Assembly (NCBI GenBank): GCA_028283765.1
Contig: JAPWJY010000003.1
Location: 62,001-126,000, forward strand
Direction: 5' to 3'
DNA length: 64,000 bases
Source: Parvibaculaceae bacterium
Lineage (GTDB): Bacteria > Pseudomonadota > Alphaproteobacteria > Parvibaculales > Parvibaculaceae
The notes under the pieces are model-generated. The model made no database searches. It was not told the DNA's origin and worked only from the letters and a program-made list of their open reading frames with translations. This document shows, piece after piece, positions 5,607 through 45,975 of this stretch. How positions within the stretch are numbered: position 1 is the first letter of the stretch; every line of letters begins with the position of its first letter. The translations under genes were made by a program, and so were the position numbers.

Positions 5607-6608
5607 TTATGGCTGTGTCGTGACCGGCGTCACAGGCACCGGATTGGCGGGCGCCACGGCCGCCTCAAGGAAGGAGCGCACGTCGCCTGCGCTTTGCTCT
5701 GCGATTTCCTCCATCGGGATATGGCCGACGCCGGGATAGATGATCAGTTTCGCGCCCGTGATCAGCCTTGCATATTCATGGGCATAGGCCACCGGAATGA
5801 GCCCGTCCCTGTCGCCCCACAGGATCAGCGTGGGCACCCGGATTTCATCGAGCCGCGCTTCCAGAAGGCTGTCGTTCTCGGCACGGGAGAAGCGGATGAC
5901 GGTCGCCGCGCGATTGCCGCAGCACTGGTTGAGGTCTTCATAGCGGCCGATCATTTCAGGCGTGACCTTCGACTGGTCGCTGAAGGCCTTGCGCACCCCT
6001 TCTTCAATGATCCGATGCGACATAGACCAGCGCATCAGGGTTCGCAGCACCGGCGTGCGGGCCAGGGTGAAGGCCAGAGGCAGCTTTTCTGGCGCACCGA
6101 GCGTGCGGGGCAGCCCTGCGGCGTCGACCAGAATGAGGCTGGTCAGTTCAGCGGGATAAAGCTCGGCATAGAGCGCCGCGATGCCGCCGCCCATGGAGTT
6201 CCCGGCGATGGCGTAGTGCATCAGCCCCAGTTTCTGCGTCACCTCATGAACGAAAGCCGCCATGCCCTCGCGGCTGTAGTCGCCGTTGGGCACCGCGCCG
6301 GTCAGGCCGTGGCCCGGCAGATCGAGGCTGACGACCCGGAACCGGCCGCCCAGCAGCTTCACCCAGGGCTCCCATGTCTGGAGCGAGGCGTTCGAGCCAT
6401 GGACGAGAACGAGCGCGGGCCCCGACTTGTTGCCCTCGTCCCGGACATGAGCTGTTGCGCCATCGGGGAGAGTAATAAACTGTGAGGCGGGCGTCGTATA
6501 GCGCGCCATAAGTTCTTCGCGGGTCAGATCCGGCCTGTAGGCCATGAAGGCAAAACCGGCAATCGCGACGAGAATAATCACCAGAACAGTGAGTGCGATC
6601 CGTTTCAT
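5607..6608 (-). CDS. Membrane-anchored alpha/beta hydrolase
   Basis: Alpha/beta-fold hydrolase of 333 residues with an N-terminal membrane anchor (about residues 4-24, hydrophobic). The oxyanion HGSNAS segment is followed by the nucleophile elbow GNSMGG with Ser138. The acid is probably in LILWGDRDGLIP and the histidine in GVGHIPMEE. Relatives are esterases, lipases or C-C bond hydrolases; the substrate cannot be told from sequence. The C-terminus is rich in Pro, Val and Thr. It converges on the LysR gene and stands alone on its strand. Confidence 0.88.
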   Translation of the reverse strand: MKRIALTVLVIILVAIAGFAFMAYRPDLTREELMARYTTPASQFITLPDGATAHVRDEGNKSGPALVLVHGSNASLQTWEPWVKLLGGRFRVVSLDLPGHGLTGAVPNGDYSREGMAAFVHEVTQKLGLMHYAIAGNSMGGGIAALYAELYPAELTSLILVDAAGLPRTLGAPEKLPLAFTLARTPVLRTLMRWSMSHRIIEEGVRKAFSDQSKVTPEMIGRYEDLNQCCGNRAATVIRFSRAENDSLLEARLDEIRVPTLILWGDRDGLIPVAYAHEYARLITGAKLIIYPGVGHIPMEEIAEQSAGDVRSFLEAAVAPANPVPVTPVTTQP

Positions 6609-6764
6609 TCAGTATCCCCCCTTAATTCCGGCTCCATTCGATCCTAAAGCCCGGTTTTATATGGTTTTCTTTGAGCTTAACCGACTTTTCCCGGGTGCGT
6701 CCCTGTGTCATGTTCTATACGAGAACGTCTGTGCGGCATTCTGCGCGACCCGACCAAGATAATA

Positions 6765-7601
6765 ATGAGCAAACCGATGCGGCGACACTGGACGTTGGAC
6801 GATATCAAATGGGGCGATTTCGACCCTGCGAAGGTTAATCCCGATCTGCTCAATGCGATCAAGGCCGCGGCCATGGTGGAGTTCAATGCGCCAGATTATG
6901 TGACCTATCTCAAGAATGTTTTCGTGGACCGGCCCGACATCAAGAAGACTCTGGAGCAGTGGGGCTCCGAGGAAGTCCAGCATGGCTGGGCGCTCGGGCG
7001 CTGGGCTGAACTGGCGGACCCGACGTTCCGGTTCGATGAGGCCATGGAGCGTTTCCGGGCGGGATATTCGATCAAGACCGATGTGATCGTTTCCGTTCGT
7101 GGCAGCCGCGCCGGGGAACTGATCGCGCGCTGTGTGGTAGAGAGCGGCACCTCTTCGTTCTATACCGCCATCAAGGAAGCGACCGACGAACCGGTGCTGA
7201 AGCAGATCGCAACCAATATCGCCGCTGACGAGTTCCGCCACTACAAGCTGTTCTATGACACGTTCCGGGATATAGACGAGGCCGTGCCGTCGCGCTTCAC
7301 CCGGGCGATGATCGCCATCGGCCGCATCAACGAAGCTGATGACGACGAACTGTCCTACGCCTATTACGCAGCCAACGTCCGCCCGGAAGACGGCATTGCC
7401 TATGACCGGGAAACCTTTGCCAAGGCCTATGAAAAGCGCGCGCTCGGCCTTTACCGCCGCCAGCATCTTGACCGGCTGATCTCGATGGTGGCCAAGGCCG
7501 TGGGCTTCGATCCGCAGGGAGCGATGATGCGCCTGCTCAAGCCCGTGATCTGGACCTTCTGGCGCAGGCGGATCAACCGGCTGGAAAAAGTGGCGATCTA
7601 G
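6765..7601 (+). CDS. Ferritin-like diiron protein
   Basis: Soluble protein of 278 residues with a complete six-ligand ferritin/R2-type diiron signature: Glu39, Glu70-x-x-His73 (EEVQH), Glu126 (VVESG) and Glu156-x-x-His159 (DEFRH). Such proteins are oxidases, oxygenases or desaturase-like enzymes; the substrate is unknown. The start at 6765 gives MSKPMRRHW; the frame is open upstream to 6705 but that extension is unlike the family. It overlaps the end of the convergent NTF2-like gene by 4 bases. It is distinct in sequence from the two tandem diiron paralogues at 43-46 kb. Confidence 0.85.
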   Translation: MSKPMRRHWTLDDIKWGDFDPAKVNPDLLNAIKAAAMVEFNAPDYVTYLKNVFVDRPDIKKTLEQWGSEEVQHGWALGRWAELADPTFRFDEAMERFRAGYSIKTDVIVSVRGSRAGELIARCVVESGTSSFYTAIKEATDEPVLKQIATNIAADEFRHYKLFYDTFRDIDEAVPSRFTRAMIAIGRINEADDDELSYAYYAANVRPEDGIAYDRETFAKAYEKRALGLYRRQHLDRLISMVAKAVGFDPQGAMMRLLKPVIWTFWRRRINRLEKVAI

Positions 7602-19379: not shown

Positions 19380-20036
19380 TCAGGCCGTTTCCTTCTGCTG
19401 GGCATGCATTCCGGGAGGGGCGAGTTCGGGAGCAGGATCGCTGGCATGGATGCCGGCGCGCAGGCCCGCGATCAGCATCTCGTAAACCCCCTGCAACTCG
19501 CGTTCGAGCCGGTCGAGGGGCAGGCGCGTGAAAAGCTGGGGGTAGCTGAACTTCATGGTGGCCGACTGGATCATCTCGGCGATGAAGTCTGTGTCGGACA
19601 CGCGGAATTCACCCGAGGCATTGCCCATTTCAAGGATGAGCCTCAACACCTTGCGCTCGCGCCAGAGGCCTTCGTCATAAAAAGTGGGTCGTTCGCTGCC
19701 GACGATATGGGCCATTTCGACCAGCTTGGGTGAATGTTCCAGCCGCTGGAAAGTCGTCCGCAGATCCTCGAACAGGAAATCATGGACGCGCTGCGCGGCA
19801 GTGCGGCCGGGCCGGGCCACAACCTTGGCCAGTTCCTCGGCGGTCTCGACCGAGGACTGGCGGCAGATGGCCTCCGCTATATCCAGCTTGCCGCTGAAAT
19901 AACGGTAGAGATTGCCCGGCGACATGTCGCAGTCCTGCGCCAGTTCAGCCATGGTGGTCTTGCCATAGCCATAGTGCGCGATCCGCGTCTTTGCAGCGGC
20001 GATGATTTTATGGCGTGTTTTGTCAGGCTCGGTCAT
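19380..20036 (-). CDS. TetR-family transcriptional regulator
   Basis: TetR-type repressor of 218 residues. The N-terminal helix-turn-helix is about residues 12-50 (IIAAAKTRIAHYGYGKTTMA, then DMSPGNLYRYFSGK). The C-terminal ligand domain contains YPQLFTRLPLDRLERELQG, seen in a group of proteobacterial TetR proteins without known ligand. The gene is divergent from gpsA across 83 bases that hold palindromes, so it may control itself and gpsA. Confidence 0.92.
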   Translation of the reverse strand: MTEPDKTRHKIIAAAKTRIAHYGYGKTTMAELAQDCDMSPGNLYRYFSGKLDIAEAICRQSSVETAEELAKVVARPGRTAAQRVHDFLFEDLRTTFQRLEHSPKLVEMAHIVGSERPTFYDEGLWRERKVLRLILEMGNASGEFRVSDTDFIAEMIQSATMKFSYPQLFTRLPLDRLERELQGVYEMLIAGLRAGIHASDPAPELAPPGMHAQQKETA

Positions 20037-40469: not shown

Positions 40470-42824
40470 TTAGTGGGCGAAGATGTTCTTTTTCTTTTTA
40501 ACAGGGGTGCGGCGCGGGACGACGATATCCAGCACAACCGCCAGCGCGGGCAGCACCGTGATCGCCATGATCATGTTGACCATGAACATGAAAGTCAGGA
40601 GCAGTCCCATGTCGGCCTGGAACTTGAGGTCCGAAAAGGCCCAGGTCGAGACGCCGATGGCGAGGGTGATCGCGGTGAAGACCGTCGCCATGCCGGTTTC
40701 GAGCAGGGCGTGCTTGTAGGCGTCGGTCGTGCTGACGCCTTCCGCGAGATGCACCTGCACCCGGTTGTAGATGTAGAAGGCGTAGTCCACGCCGATGCCG
40801 ACGGCGAGCACCATGACGGGCAGGGTCGCGACCGTCAGGCCGATCTGCAGCACCTCCATGAACCAGTAGCCGAAGAAGGTGGCGAAGGTCAGGGGCAGGC
40901 AGCAGGCGACGACCGCCCGCCAGTCGCGGTAGGTGATGATGACGAGCGCGACGATGACGGCATAGACCCACAGCATCATGGGCACTTCCGCATGTTCGAT
41001 CTCGTCGTTGACGGCGGCCTGCACTCCCATGTTGCCGGAGGCGAGGCGGATATTGACGCCCTTCATCGGATGCTCGGTGCGGTAGCTCTTCACGGCCTCG
41101 ACCACGCCCTTGATGGTTGCGGCCTTGGCGTCCTTCAGGAAGACCTGTACCGGCAGCACGCTGCATTCCTGGTTGAGCAGGCCCGAGGAGGGCGATACGG
41201 GCTGCACCGCCTGCACCAGCGCCAGCTTGTTGCGTGGAATGGCTTCCCATTTGGGGTTGGCCTCGTTCCAGCCCGCGCCGGTCGTCTTCACTGCGAAGGG
41301 CAGCGACAGCACCAGCGACACGCCCGGCTGGTTCTCCATGTACCAGGAGAACTGGTCGAGATAATGCATGTAGTCATATTTGATGCAGGCTTCGGGCGGG
41401 GTTTCCACCACGATGGTGAAGAGGTTGAGCCCGAGCGCGTACTGCTCCGAGACAACCCGGCTGTCCACATTGTAGCGGGCGTCGGGGCGCAATTCGGCGG
41501 AACCGGCGTGAAGCGCGCCGACATGCCGGTTGCGGCTCTGGTAGACGGCGACGCCGAACAGCGTGACCGAGATCACAAGCGTGATCACCGCGCCGCGCGG
41601 CGTCGCCAGATTGCCGAGCATGCCCATCAGTTTCAGGCGGAACACGCGGGCACGGCTGATCTTGTCGGCGAAATTGGCCGGGAATTTGAAATAGCTGACG
41701 ACGAGCGGCAGCATGATCAAATTGGTGATGATCTTGAGCGCCACGCCGATGGAGGCCGTGATCGCCAGTTCCCGGATCATGGGCACGGGGATGATGTAGA
41801 GCGTGGCGAAGCCCGCGAACGCCGTCACCAGCGCCATGGTGCCCGGGATGAGCAGGCCCGAGAAACTGGCCCGGGCGGCCGCTTCCACGCTCTTGCCCGA
41901 ACTGATCTCGGCGGTGATCAGGTTGATCTGCTGCACCCCGTGGCTGACGCCGATGGCGAAGACGAGGAACGGCACCAGCACCGCGAGGGGGTCCAGGCCG
42001 AAGCCGAGCAGGTTGAGGATGGCGAATTGCCAGACCACCGAGGTGAGCGAGGAGAAGAGGGTGGCGAAGGTCAGCGCCGCCGAACGCGAATAGAGATAGA
42101 CGCTCAGCGCGGTGAGGAAAAAGGCGACGGTGAAGAATTTCAGCACGCTCGACGCGCCGTCGGCGATATCGCCGATCAGCTTGGCGAAGCCGATGATGCG
42201 CACCGTGTAGGTGTCATTCTCGTATTTGTCGCGAATCTGGGTTTCGAGCCGGTGGGCAAGGTCGAAATAGTCGAGGCGTTTGCCTGTCGTGGGGTCATAG
42301 TCCTGCAATTCGGCGGAAACCATGGCCGAGGTGAAGTCGTCGGAAACCAGCTTGCCGACGAAGCCGCCGCGGATCACGTTGCTTTCGACATGCTGGAGGG
42401 AATCCGGCGTCAGCGTGTTTGCCGTCACATTGCCCGGGATCACGTCGTCGGCGGAAATGCCGTCCTCGGTGATCTCGATATAACGGGTGTTGGGCGTCCA
42501 CAGCGACGTCACCGTGGAGCGTGAGACGCCGGGAAGGAAGAAGATGTCGTCGGTCAGGTTCTTGTAGGTGGAGAAAAAGGGCTTGTTCCAGATCGTGCCC
42601 TTGTTCTGTTCAAGCACCACCAGGATGCGGTTGGAGCCGAACAGCTTGCTGCGGTACTCCTGAAAGGTCTTGATATACTCATGACCGATCGGCAACTGCT
42701 TGTCGAAACCGGCCGTCATATGCAGTTGCGTGGCGAAATAGGCCGCTCCCAGCGTGATGATCGCCAGTGTGATCAGGATGTAACTGCGCATCCCGAAAAT
42801 AAAATTTTCGAACTTCTTGACCAT
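40470..42824 (-). CDS. RND/MMPL-family exporter
   Basis: Inner-membrane RND superfamily protein of 784 residues, of the MMPL/SSD type that moves lipids, sterols, hopanoids or other hydrophobic compounds. One N-terminal membrane helix, a large periplasmic loop (about 40-225), a block of about five helices with LGFGLDPLAVLVPFLVFAIG and GVSHGVQQINL, a second loop and a second helix block (VMVLAVGIGVDYAFYIYNRV) are visible. The start at 42824 (MVKKFENF) is clear from the hydrophobic onset; the frame extends further. It is divergent from the tandem diiron genes and is clearly paralogous to the partial gene at 62.6 kb. Confidence 0.9.
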   Translation of the reverse strand: MVKKFENFIFGMRSYILITLAIITLGAAYFATQLHMTAGFDKQLPIGHEYIKTFQEYRSKLFGSNRILVVLEQNKGTIWNKPFFSTYKNLTDDIFFLPGVSRSTVTSLWTPNTRYIEITEDGISADDVIPGNVTANTLTPDSLQHVESNVIRGGFVGKLVSDDFTSAMVSAELQDYDPTTGKRLDYFDLAHRLETQIRDKYENDTYTVRIIGFAKLIGDIADGASSVLKFFTVAFFLTALSVYLYSRSAALTFATLFSSLTSVVWQFAILNLLGFGLDPLAVLVPFLVFAIGVSHGVQQINLITAEISSGKSVEAAARASFSGLLIPGTMALVTAFAGFATLYIIPVPMIRELAITASIGVALKIITNLIMLPLVVSYFKFPANFADKISRARVFRLKLMGMLGNLATPRGAVITLVISVTLFGVAVYQSRNRHVGALHAGSAELRPDARYNVDSRVVSEQYALGLNLFTIVVETPPEACIKYDYMHYLDQFSWYMENQPGVSLVLSLPFAVKTTGAGWNEANPKWEAIPRNKLALVQAVQPVSPSSGLLNQECSVLPVQVFLKDAKAATIKGVVEAVKSYRTEHPMKGVNIRLASGNMGVQAAVNDEIEHAEVPMMLWVYAVIVALVIITYRDWRAVVACCLPLTFATFFGYWFMEVLQIGLTVATLPVMVLAVGIGVDYAFYIYNRVQVHLAEGVSTTDAYKHALLETGMATVFTAITLAIGVSTWAFSDLKFQADMGLLLTFMFMVNMIMAITVLPALAVVLDIVVPRRTPVKKKKNIFAH

Positions 42825-43234: not shown

Positions 43235-43272
43235 TGACGGCACATGTCAAAAAATGACGCTGGCGTCATTTT
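43235..43272. promoter_or_regulatory. Operator-like palindromes before diiron gene 1
   Basis: TGAC-N7-GTCA at 43235-43249 is followed directly by a perfect 9-bp dyad, AAAATGACG at 43251-43259 and CGTCATTTT at 43264-43272, with a CTGG centre. They lie about 170-200 bases ahead of the start at 43438 in the exporter/diiron divergent region. A related element lies ahead of the second diiron gene. Confidence 0.6.
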
Positions 43273-43437
43273 GGCCTTGCCTCCCCTTCCGTCCGGGCCT
43301 ACTTTATTGTCAGCCGCATGATCAGGTCATGGAAGTCCGTACCCCGCGTGAGCGCGGATTTCCAAGAAGAGCCATGGAATGCAAGGGTCACACAACAGTC
43401 TGGTCGAGGCCGCGCCCGCCGGATTTTGGAGGATAGC

Positions 43438-44574
43438 ATGAGCGAAGTGCGCCAGATCACCAAGGACGAAGCCTATGATGCCGTGGCTCCCGACGACTTC
43501 CCGGCGATGCTGGATGTAGAGCGCTATGGCAACCGCTCGACCGCGTTCGACAAGATCATTTCCGCGACCCACGATCATTTCTGGGACCCGCTGGATCTGA
43601 AATACATCGATTTTTCAGAGCCGTTCGACATGGAAAACAACATGGTCATTCCAGAGGAACTGATCATGGAATTCCGCCTGCCGTCGTTCGATAAACTGAC
43701 GCAGAAGCAGCGCGTGAAGTTTGCCAACGAGCAGGCCCGCTGGATGCTCTCGTCGATCCTGCACGGTGAGCAGGGCGCGCTCGCGCTTTCCGCCAGCCTC
43801 TGCCACATTCTCCGCGATCCGGGCGCGCAGGAATATGCCGCGAACCAGACCCGCGAGGAAGCCCGCCACGTCACCGCCTTTTCCCGGTATATTCAGGCCC
43901 GCTGGGGCAAGCCCCTGCCGGTTGGCGAGACGCTCGGCAATCTGCTGACGGACATCGTCGGCGCGCCGGAAGTCTACAAGAAGGTCGTCGGCATGCAGAT
44001 GCTGGTCGAGGGCCTCGCCATGGGCGCGTTCGCCACCTTCTACGCCAAGTCCACCGATCCGCTGATGGTCAAGCTGATGCAGCTTGTCATGACGGACGAG
44101 GCCTTCCACCACAAGTTCGGCAAGATCTGGGCCGACCGCACCATCCCCAAGCTCTCGGAAGAGGAACAGAACCTGATCGAGGACTGGGCGGCGAGCTGCT
44201 TCCAGACGCTGCTGTTCAACCTCGTGAACCCCGAGCAGAAGAAGGTCATCTATGCCGAGTTCGGCCTCGACTGGCAGCAGGTCATGAACGAGATGATCGA
44301 GGCCGTGACGGATGAGGATCGCCGCAAGGACATGCAGGAAGGCACCAATATCTTCCGCGTGCTCATCAAGACCCTGCTCAAGGCCGGCATCATCACCGAC
44401 CGGACCAAGGACTTCTATGCGACCTATGTGGACATGGAGGAACTGAGGAGCGAAGGCGACAGGATGGTTGGCGACGACATCGCCGAAGATGGCATCCGCT
44501 TCCTCCAGAAGATCAATTTCGGCACCAACACGGATGCGTTGAAGAATATCTCGCTGTCGTCCGCCGCCGAATAA
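43438..44574 (+). CDS. Diiron ferritin-like protein, paralogue 1
   Basis: Protein of 378 residues with a complete R2/ferritin-type diiron ligand set: Glu111 (HGEQGAL), Glu141-x-x-His144 (EEARHV), Glu191 (VEGLAMG) and Glu221-x-x-His224 (DEAFHH). It should use O2 for oxidation or oxygenation, but the substrate is unknown to me; AurF-like oxygenases and RNR-R2-like proteins share the fold. GGAGG at 43430 precedes the ATG at 43438. It is about 80% alike by eye to paralogue 2, 214 bases downstream. It has its own terminator, so each copy seems separately expressed. Confidence 0.88.
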   Translation: MSEVRQITKDEAYDAVAPDDFPAMLDVERYGNRSTAFDKIISATHDHFWDPLDLKYIDFSEPFDMENNMVIPEELIMEFRLPSFDKLTQKQRVKFANEQARWMLSSILHGEQGALALSASLCHILRDPGAQEYAANQTREEARHVTAFSRYIQARWGKPLPVGETLGNLLTDIVGAPEVYKKVVGMQMLVEGLAMGAFATFYAKSTDPLMVKLMQLVMTDEAFHHKFGKIWADRTIPKLSEEEQNLIEDWAASCFQTLLFNLVNPEQKKVIYAEFGLDWQQVMNEMIEAVTDEDRRKDMQEGTNIFRVLIKTLLKAGIITDRTKDFYATYVDMEELRSEGDRMVGDDIAEDGIRFLQKINFGTNTDALKNISLSSAAE

Positions 44575-44598
44575 TCCGCAACAGGAAAACAGTGCTGA

Positions 44599-44630
44599 AG
44601 GGCGGTCCGGTCGGGCCGCCCTTTTTGTTT
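44599..44630 (+). terminator. Terminator after diiron gene 1
   Basis: AGGGCGGTCC at 44599-44608 pairs with GGGCCGCCCT at 44613-44622 (one G-U) across a GGTC loop, followed by TTTTTG. Confidence 0.85.
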
Positions 44631-44653
44631 GGGCTTACGGTCCGCCCCTGCGC

Positions 44654-44678
44654 AAAATGACGCATGTGTCACTTTTTG
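44654..44678. promoter_or_regulatory. Operator-like dyad before diiron gene 2
   Basis: AAAATGACGC at 44654-44663 and TGTCACTTTTT at 44668-44678 form an imperfect dyad. The left arm is identical over ten bases to that of the palindrome ahead of diiron gene 1, and the place relative to the gene is similar (about 110 bases before the start). Confidence 0.55.
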
Positions 44679-44788
44679 ATTGTTTCGCGAGTCAAAGACC
44701 ATAATTATTTTGTGTGTATTTGTCGGGGAGGACCCGGTGCCCCCTTCCGGAGGGGAGGGCGGGCAGAACGCAGGGAAGGAACAGGGAC

Positions 44789-45913
44789 ATGAGCGCCGCG
44801 CGCCAGATCACCAAGGACAATGCCTATGAGGCCGTCGCCCCGGAGGATTTCGAGGCGATGCTGAATGTGGACCGCTACAACCGCCGGTCCGGCGCCTTCG
44901 ACAAGATCATTTCCGCGACCCACGACCATTTCTGGGATCCGCTGGACAAGCGCTATATCGACTATGACGAGCCTTTCGACGTCGAGAACGAGATGCTGAT
45001 CTCGCCAGCCCTGGTCCCGGAACTGGAATTGCCCTGTTTTCAGGCACTGACGCAGAAGCAGAAGGTGGGTTTCGTCAACGAGACGGCGCACTGGATGATG
45101 TCGGCGATCCTGCATGGCGAGCAGGGCGCCATGAACCTGTCGGCAAGCCTCTGCCATATCCTTCTCGATCCCGGCGCGCAGGAATATGCCGCGAACCAGG
45201 CCCGCGAGGAGGCCCGTCACGTCACCGCGTTCGCGAAATATGTGCAGGCCCGCTGGGGCAAGCCGCTTGCCGTCGGTGAGACGCTGGCGTCCCTGCTCAC
45301 CGAAATGGTCAATGCCCGGGAGGTCTACAAGAAGATCGTGGGCATGCAGCTTCTGGTCGAAGGGCTGGCCATGGGCACCTTCGCCACCTTCTTCAATCAG
45401 GCCCGCGACCCGTTGCTGGTCAAGCTCTGCCAGCTTGCGATGACGGACGAGGCGTTCCACCACAAGTTCGGCAAGATCTGGGCGGACCGCACCATCCCGA
45501 AGCTCTCGGCCGAGGAGCAGAACCTGATCGAGGACTGGGCGGCGAGCTGCTTCCAGACGCTGCTGTTCAACCTCGTGAACCCCGAACAGAAAAAGGCCCT
45601 ATATGCGCCCTTCGGCCTCGACTGGCAGGTGGTGCAGGCCGAAATGCTGGAGGCCGTGACCGACGACGACCGCCGCGAGCAGATGAAGGAGGGCACCAAT
45701 GTTTTCCGGGTGCTGGTCAAGACCCTGCTCAAGGCGGGCATCATCACCGCGCGCACCCGGCCCTTCTATGCCCTCTATGTGGATATGGACGAGTTAAAGA
45801 ACGAGGACGAGCGGATGGTCGGCGATGATATTGCCGAAGCCGGTATCCGCTATCTCCAGACCATCAATTTCGACAAGAACAAGGCCATCAGGCTGACATC
45901 TGCCGCGGAGTAG
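44789..45913 (+). CDS. Diiron ferritin-like protein, paralogue 2
   Basis: Protein of 374 residues collinear with paralogue 1, with the same ligand positions: Glu111, Glu141/His144, Glu191 and Glu221/His224. Long stretches such as FDKIISATHDHFWDPLD and FHHKFGKIWADRTIPKLS are shared; the region from 70 to 100 and the C-terminus differ most. The start at 44789 (MSAARQITKDNAYE) matches the paralogue and follows AAGGAACAGGG. A tandem duplication kept with both active sites intact suggests that both are used, perhaps on different substrates or as a heterodimer. Confidence 0.88.
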   Translation: MSAARQITKDNAYEAVAPEDFEAMLNVDRYNRRSGAFDKIISATHDHFWDPLDKRYIDYDEPFDVENEMLISPALVPELELPCFQALTQKQKVGFVNETAHWMMSAILHGEQGAMNLSASLCHILLDPGAQEYAANQAREEARHVTAFAKYVQARWGKPLAVGETLASLLTEMVNAREVYKKIVGMQLLVEGLAMGTFATFFNQARDPLLVKLCQLAMTDEAFHHKFGKIWADRTIPKLSAEEQNLIEDWAASCFQTLLFNLVNPEQKKALYAPFGLDWQVVQAEMLEAVTDDDRREQMKEGTNVFRVLVKTLLKAGIITARTRPFYALYVDMDELKNEDERMVGDDIAEAGIRYLQTINFDKNKAIRLTSAAE

Positions 45914-45945: not shown

Positions 45946-45975
45946 CCCTCGCACCTCTGGTGCGAGGGTTTTTTT
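45946..45975 (+). terminator. Terminator after diiron gene 2
   Basis: CCCTCGCAC at 45946-45954 pairs perfectly with GTGCGAGGG at 45960-45968 across CTCTG, followed by seven T. Confidence 0.92.

Follow-up and report, generated by a model that had tools for sequence, protein, structure and literature searches.

Two neighbouring genes for putative diiron oxygenases are each preceded by a similar palindrome, which raises the question of which protein might read these elements and what else it might control. A preliminary description of the 64-kb stretch of DNA analysed here (hereafter the window) had proposed that one regulator acts on both copies and perhaps also on the divergent RND exporter. 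We now consider it likely that the palindromes are operators for one distant TetR-type regulator, which controls a small oxidation regulon. The features on which this reading builds are listed in Table 1. The first dyad lies exactly where it had been placed before, its arms being 10 bp long and not 9 bp as claimed; the second has the described place and left arm and spans 44654-44675, slightly less than the 44654-44678 originally given. Within the window, AAAATGACGC is found on the plus strand only at dyads 1 and 2; its sole minus-strand occurrence is the right arm of dyad 1. Each gene had also been credited with its own terminator, and terminator-like hairpins are indeed located directly 3' of both diiron stop codons, while hairpins of this class as a whole are not enriched (2 found versus 2.3 expected in shuffles). 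Likewise, it is correct that no regulator gene adjoins the locus in the window. In the diiron proteins, the ligands E111, E141/H144, E191 and E221/H224 are invariant among 15-16 aligned homologues and follow the E, ExxH, E, ExxH type, and the AlphaFold model matched CmlI, AurF, R2lox and RNR R2 about equally well.

Table 1. Coordinates of the genes, palindromes, hairpins and putative promoters in the window, and of the unlinked TetR A gene.
Feature	Position	Strand	Description
Divergent RND/MMPL (HAE3-like) exporter	40470..42824	-	784 aa; conserved neighbour
Operator-like palindrome 1	43251..43272	.	AAAATGACGC-TG-GCGTCATTTT; 10-bp arms, perfect; conserved in relatives
Putative promoter, diiron gene 1	43277..43305	+	TTGCCT-N17-TACTTT; -35 starts 4 nt past palindrome; same geometry in orthologues
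Diiron (AurF-like) putative oxygenase paralogue 1	43438..44574	+	378 aa; Pfam AurF PF11583, 33.9 bits (cut-off 29.6)
Terminator-like hairpin after diiron gene 1	44597..44624	+	hairpin scan
Operator-like palindrome 2	44654..44675	.	AAAATGACGC-AT-GTGTCACTTT; 8/10 arm pairs
Putative promoter, diiron gene 2	44676..44708	+	TTGTTT (44680)-N17-AATTAT or TTGATT (44676)-N18-CATAAT; 0-4 nt past palindrome
Diiron (AurF-like) putative oxygenase paralogue 2	44789..45913	+	374 aa; ~76% identical to paralogue 1; Pfam AurF, 33.8 bits
Terminator-like hairpin after diiron gene 2	45946..45968	+	perfect 10-bp stem + 7 T
TetR A	G000:C3:310909-311580		222 aa; unlinked to the diiron genes of the window

Across the 3.24-Mb source genome, the pattern AAARTGACRCNNGYGTCAYTTT was searched with up to three mismatches, with the reversed pattern as a control. 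It matched five places and the control none, so that the number of sites is far above chance, and the palindrome withstands the suspicion that it occurs at chance frequency. Three sites have at most one mismatch and stand one before each diiron paralogue, namely the two genes of the window and a third paralogue at C3:1071211-1072327, and therefore every diiron copy of this genome possesses one. The fourth site (TAAATGACGGATGCGTCATCTT, three mismatches) precedes genes for a ferredoxin reductase and a 2Fe-2S ferredoxin (L007:5264-6505 and 6559-6879), and the fifth is weak and probably a chance match. A pattern restricted to the core (ATGACGCNNGCGTCAT) was discarded as too loose at three mismatches (449 matches per strand versus 54 for the control); its one-mismatch match at C3:649474, which lies inside a DNA-polymerase-like ORF, was taken as chance. 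The third diiron paralogue (G000:C3:1071211-1072460; L006:5209-6460) is split over two overlapping reading frames, while the sister genome G001 (L086) has an unbroken copy, which suggests a frameshift or a sequencing error in the copy of the source genome.

Relatives do not lack the element either. Among 61 relatives searched with up to two mismatches, all 36 other Parvibaculaceae genomes contain two to nine sites each, with no match of the control in all but one of them. In 40 site regions, the genes recurring downstream code for diiron proteins, ferredoxin reductases, ferredoxins, P450s, alpha/beta hydrolases and a GMC oxidoreductase, and MMPL exporters are found divergent from the diiron gene. 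In a sample of the class, the motif is present with at most one mismatch in 24 of 289 genomes and the control in none. Outside the Parvibaculaceae, a site separates a diiron orthologue (72-79% identical) from a divergent MMPL gene in G156, G259, G174 and G087, and before other diiron homologues in G151, G254, G184 and G261; it also precedes a run of three CYP153-like P450 genes (G156, G259), a GMC oxidoreductase gene (G087) and an acyl-CoA dehydrogenase-like gene (G184). Among GTDB genomes, 50 of 76 distinct diiron upstream regions carry the palindrome with up to three mismatches; among 1371 other windows taken from these loci, 23 do, and real sites are included in that number. In an alignment of 70 distinct sites, T5, G6, C8, C17 and A18 are invariant, and the two-base centre shows no preference. 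The matching palindromes are real, conserved switch sites, found ahead of these and kindred oxidation genes in many Alphaproteobacteria. In some Parvibaculaceae (L074, L088), the palindrome precedes a gene that resembles those for tRNA nucleotidyltransferases and follows a NUDIX hydrolase gene; this gene would be an unexpected member of the regulon.

Candidates for the regulator were sought by phylogenetic profile among proteins with a TetR_N domain. The numbers of TetR proteins listed were 5 in G184, 6 in G282, 9 in G174, 18 in G087 and 44 in the source genome, and of the proteins read, TetR A is the only group common to all five genomes. TetR A is encoded in 35 of the 289 class genomes and in 22 of the 24 motif-positive ones (Fisher p=7e-22); counted by family, it occurs in 12 of 14 motif-positive and in 5 of 144 other families (p=1.6e-12), both p values being inflated by kinship. 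The two motif-positive genomes without it, G202 and G206, carry one site each, next to unrelated genes, and 13 genomes with TetR A have no site at up to one mismatch. When only diiron-bearing genomes are considered, one or more diiron genes have a palindrome (up to three mismatches) upstream in 21 of 27 genomes with TetR A and in none of 12 without it (p=5e-6, again inflated by kinship). The two genes are neighbours in G264 (L265), where TetR A adjoins a diiron gene. In family f42, the TetR A gene itself has a palindrome upstream, which is clear in G077 (L264:2380, AAAATGACGCCAGCGTCAATTC, two mismatches) and more degenerate in G203 (L267:2298) and G299 (L266:1337); none was found upstream of the TetR A gene of the source genome. 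Across 26 TetR A orthologues, the recognition helix hardly varies. The proposal of one regulator for both copies therefore holds up well: the same element is found at both, at the third copy and across the family and the class, and it tracks a single unlinked TetR protein. Judged from sequence and distribution, TetR A very probably binds the palindromes. A second TetR protein, TetR B (window 19380-20036), served as a control and was rejected as the regulator. It overlaps with 16 of the 24 motif-positive genomes and shares only phylogenetic signal with the motif, which occurs in 0 of 11 genomes that have TetR B without TetR A and in 6 of 12 that have TetR A without TetR B.

The palindromes could instead be read by a conserved regulator of another protein family, the distribution of which tracks that of TetR A. 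All screened candidates were TetR_N proteins, the spacing TGAC-N6-GTCA also suits ArsR- or CRP-type dimers, and co-occurrence shares phylogenetic signal, as the partial correlation of TetR B illustrates. However, three observations are specific to TetR A: its linkage to a diiron gene in G264, the f42 palindrome before its own gene, and the split of 21 of 27 versus 0 of 12. We regard a regulator of another family as rather improbable. Far less credible still is a local TetR_C_33 protein of G002 (L068:3582-4199), whose gene adjoins a diironB-ferredoxin pair that has two palindromes. Its orthologue is absent from the palindrome-bearing genomes G000, G001, G003, G005 and G011, its own palindrome is another one (CTCAATGTTG-N7-CAACATTGAG), and a different TetR protein occupies that place in another genome; its distribution and its own operator largely rule it out. 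The two window genes are tandem paralogues with 76% identity, and the shared element might accordingly be a functionless remnant of their duplication. Yet it is kept across families and before unrelated P450, ferredoxin and GMC genes, whereas its flanks are not kept, and we attach practically no weight to this idea.

If TetR A is the protein that reads the palindromes, the position of the sites relative to the promoters bears on the sign of control. Diiron genes show a -35-like TTGAC/TTGNNN 2-5 nt past the palindrome and, after another 16-17 nt, a -10-like TA-box. A 145-bp scan covered 30 GTDB diiron promoters from many families, and in 27 of them the promoter with the highest score begins at +2 to +5. 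Several P450 promoters show the same spacing between the palindrome and the -35 box. Such a fixed spot before the -35 box suits an activator, and TetR A could resemble FasR in binding directly upstream of -35, contacting RNA polymerase and being switched on by a long-chain acyl ligand, a reading to which its weak full-length match to this TetR activator also points. Against it, TetR-family proteins are mostly repressors, the FasR match is far below the cut-off (see below), and in genus g2 the site takes up the spacer between -35 and -10 at ferredoxin genes or lies 2-35 nt from the start codon of ferredoxin reductase genes, positions that suit a repressor. A single repressor is the simplest account of all site positions. 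We lean towards TetR A being a repressor and think activation unlikely. A still wider proposal, in which an acyl-chain-responsive TetR activator upstream of -35 coordinates AurF-like diiron proteins, CYP153-like P450s, a ferredoxin chain and the MMPL exporter widely in Alphaproteobacteria, with the diiron proteins oxygenating lipid or alkane chains and being supplied by the redox partners of the P450s, appears doubtful to us.

What might TetR A sense? Its N-terminus matches Pfam TetR_N (58.1 bits, cut-off 24), and its C-terminal domain matched no Pfam family. The AlphaFold (AF2) model (pLDDT 88) is an all-helical TetR fold with a C-terminal ligand/dimer domain, and its best structural match is Bacillus FadR (3whb, Z 19.5, rmsd 2.2 over 182 residues). 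The top Bacillus FadR entries lie between Z 19.2 and 19.5, with the stearoyl-CoA complex 3whc at 19.4, followed by 3lwj (Z 18.2) and Sulfolobus FadR (Z 18.1), with DesT and FasR lower. By sequence, TetR A is far below every NCBIfam equivalog cut-off, with 40.5 bits against 200 for FadR (NF053878), 35.1 against 330 for FasR (NF053731) and 32.3 against 368 for RutR (TIGR03613), and is therefore placed in none of these families. In at least two further lineages, an HSL-type esterase gene follows TetR A. Since the targets would oxidise hydrophobic chains and the fold matches FadR, an acyl-CoA or a similar compound is our best guess for the ligand, and on the strength of the model we give an acyl-CoA type about an even chance.

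These comparisons place TetR A beside several known systems. Bacillus FadR, a repressor of fatty-acid degradation that binds long-chain acyl-CoA, resembles it in fold, as the top structural match, and in having a small chain-oxidation regulon with palindromic operators; it differs in its operator, and the targets of TetR A are oxygenases and redox partners, not beta-oxidation genes. The palindrome of RutR, a TetR protein of pyrimidine catabolism, is TTGACCA-N2-TGGTCAA and has the TGAC-N6-GTCA spacing in common with ours, whereas the TetR A regulon contains no pyrimidine genes and the sequence match is low. Mycobacterial FasR shares the TetR fold (6o6p, Z 15.9), a weak match over most of the length and a site that, like that of TetR A, lies upstream of -35 as for an activator, but it belongs to another bacterial class and has other target genes. 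FasR is a TetR-like activator of mycobacterial fatty acid synthesis that senses long-chain acyl-CoA (PMC7382501). By their description, the PsrA, FadP and LiuQ regulons of Proteobacteria, TetR regulons for acyl- or branched-chain catabolism which were defined through comparative genomics of palindromes, are also alike; FadP and LiuQ are described as restricted to Betaproteobacteria (PMC5343134).

We propose that both palindromes would be read by one homodimeric regulator of the TetR family, TetR A, the gene of which lies far off in the same genome. The dimer would bind the 22-bp sequence AAA(A/G)TGAC(G/A)C-N2-G(C/T)GTCA(C/T)TTT just upstream of each diiron -35 box, would act as a repressor and might be released by an acyl-CoA or a fatty-acid-like ligand. 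In the source genome, the predicted regulon would comprise the three diiron oxygenase paralogues and the ferredoxin-reductase/ferredoxin operon; in relatives, it would also include CYP153-like P450s, ferredoxins, a GMC alcohol dehydrogenase and hydrolases, and would thus serve hydrophobic-chain oxidation. The sites, their conservation and their co-occurrence and linkage with TetR A, from which this model starts, are computational observations. The divergent RND (MMPL) exporter is possibly under the same control, as the arrangement of diiron gene, site and MMPL gene is kept in several families. Between the site and the MMPL start there are 225-450 bp, and a search for a conserved MMPL promoter beside the site found none.

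Judged by its sequence features, the P450 in L070 looks like a member of the CYP153 alkane hydroxylase family. The source genome has a CYP153-like gene of its own (C3:1275928-1277136, 74% identical to its counterpart in G011), and no palindrome was found at this gene; regulon membership has therefore shifted between lineages. A gene for a CRP/FNR-type-looking regulator (L350:630-1355) is divergent from this palindrome-less P450 gene, which may have passed to another regulator.

In the open-licence literature searched, no earlier description of the palindrome or the regulon was found, and the TetR-operator regulon is apparently new, of a known type and undescribed. For a conserved, unstudied family of diiron oxygenases, it supplies an unlinked regulator, an operator ready for use and a metabolic setting, in which hydrophobic chains are oxidised together with CYP153-like P450s and their redox partners. 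This concerns Parvibaculum-like and other Alphaproteobacteria, among which are several degraders of oil or surfactants. The TetR-operator pair could act as a sensor for the substrate class of the diiron proteins.

Some observations concern variant sites and further targets. Two families with a diiron gene and without TetR A (L384 and L390 in G068 and G293; L386 in G117) have TTGACGT-N2-ACGTCAA upstream of the diiron gene, which is perhaps read by a related regulator of altered specificity. In the small f49 genomes G303 and G084 (L161-L163), which have a divergent TetR A, the palindrome is located not before a diiron gene but near genes for outer-membrane efflux (TolC-like) and periplasmic adaptor-like proteins, and a switch of targets to efflux is possible. 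Finally, in genus g2, including G018 (L068:3458-3600, L044, L107), FNR-like boxes (TTGAC-N4-GTCAA, TTGAT-N4-GTCAA) adjoin the palindrome at diironB, ferredoxin and TetR genes, which suggests an additional control by oxygen or redox state.
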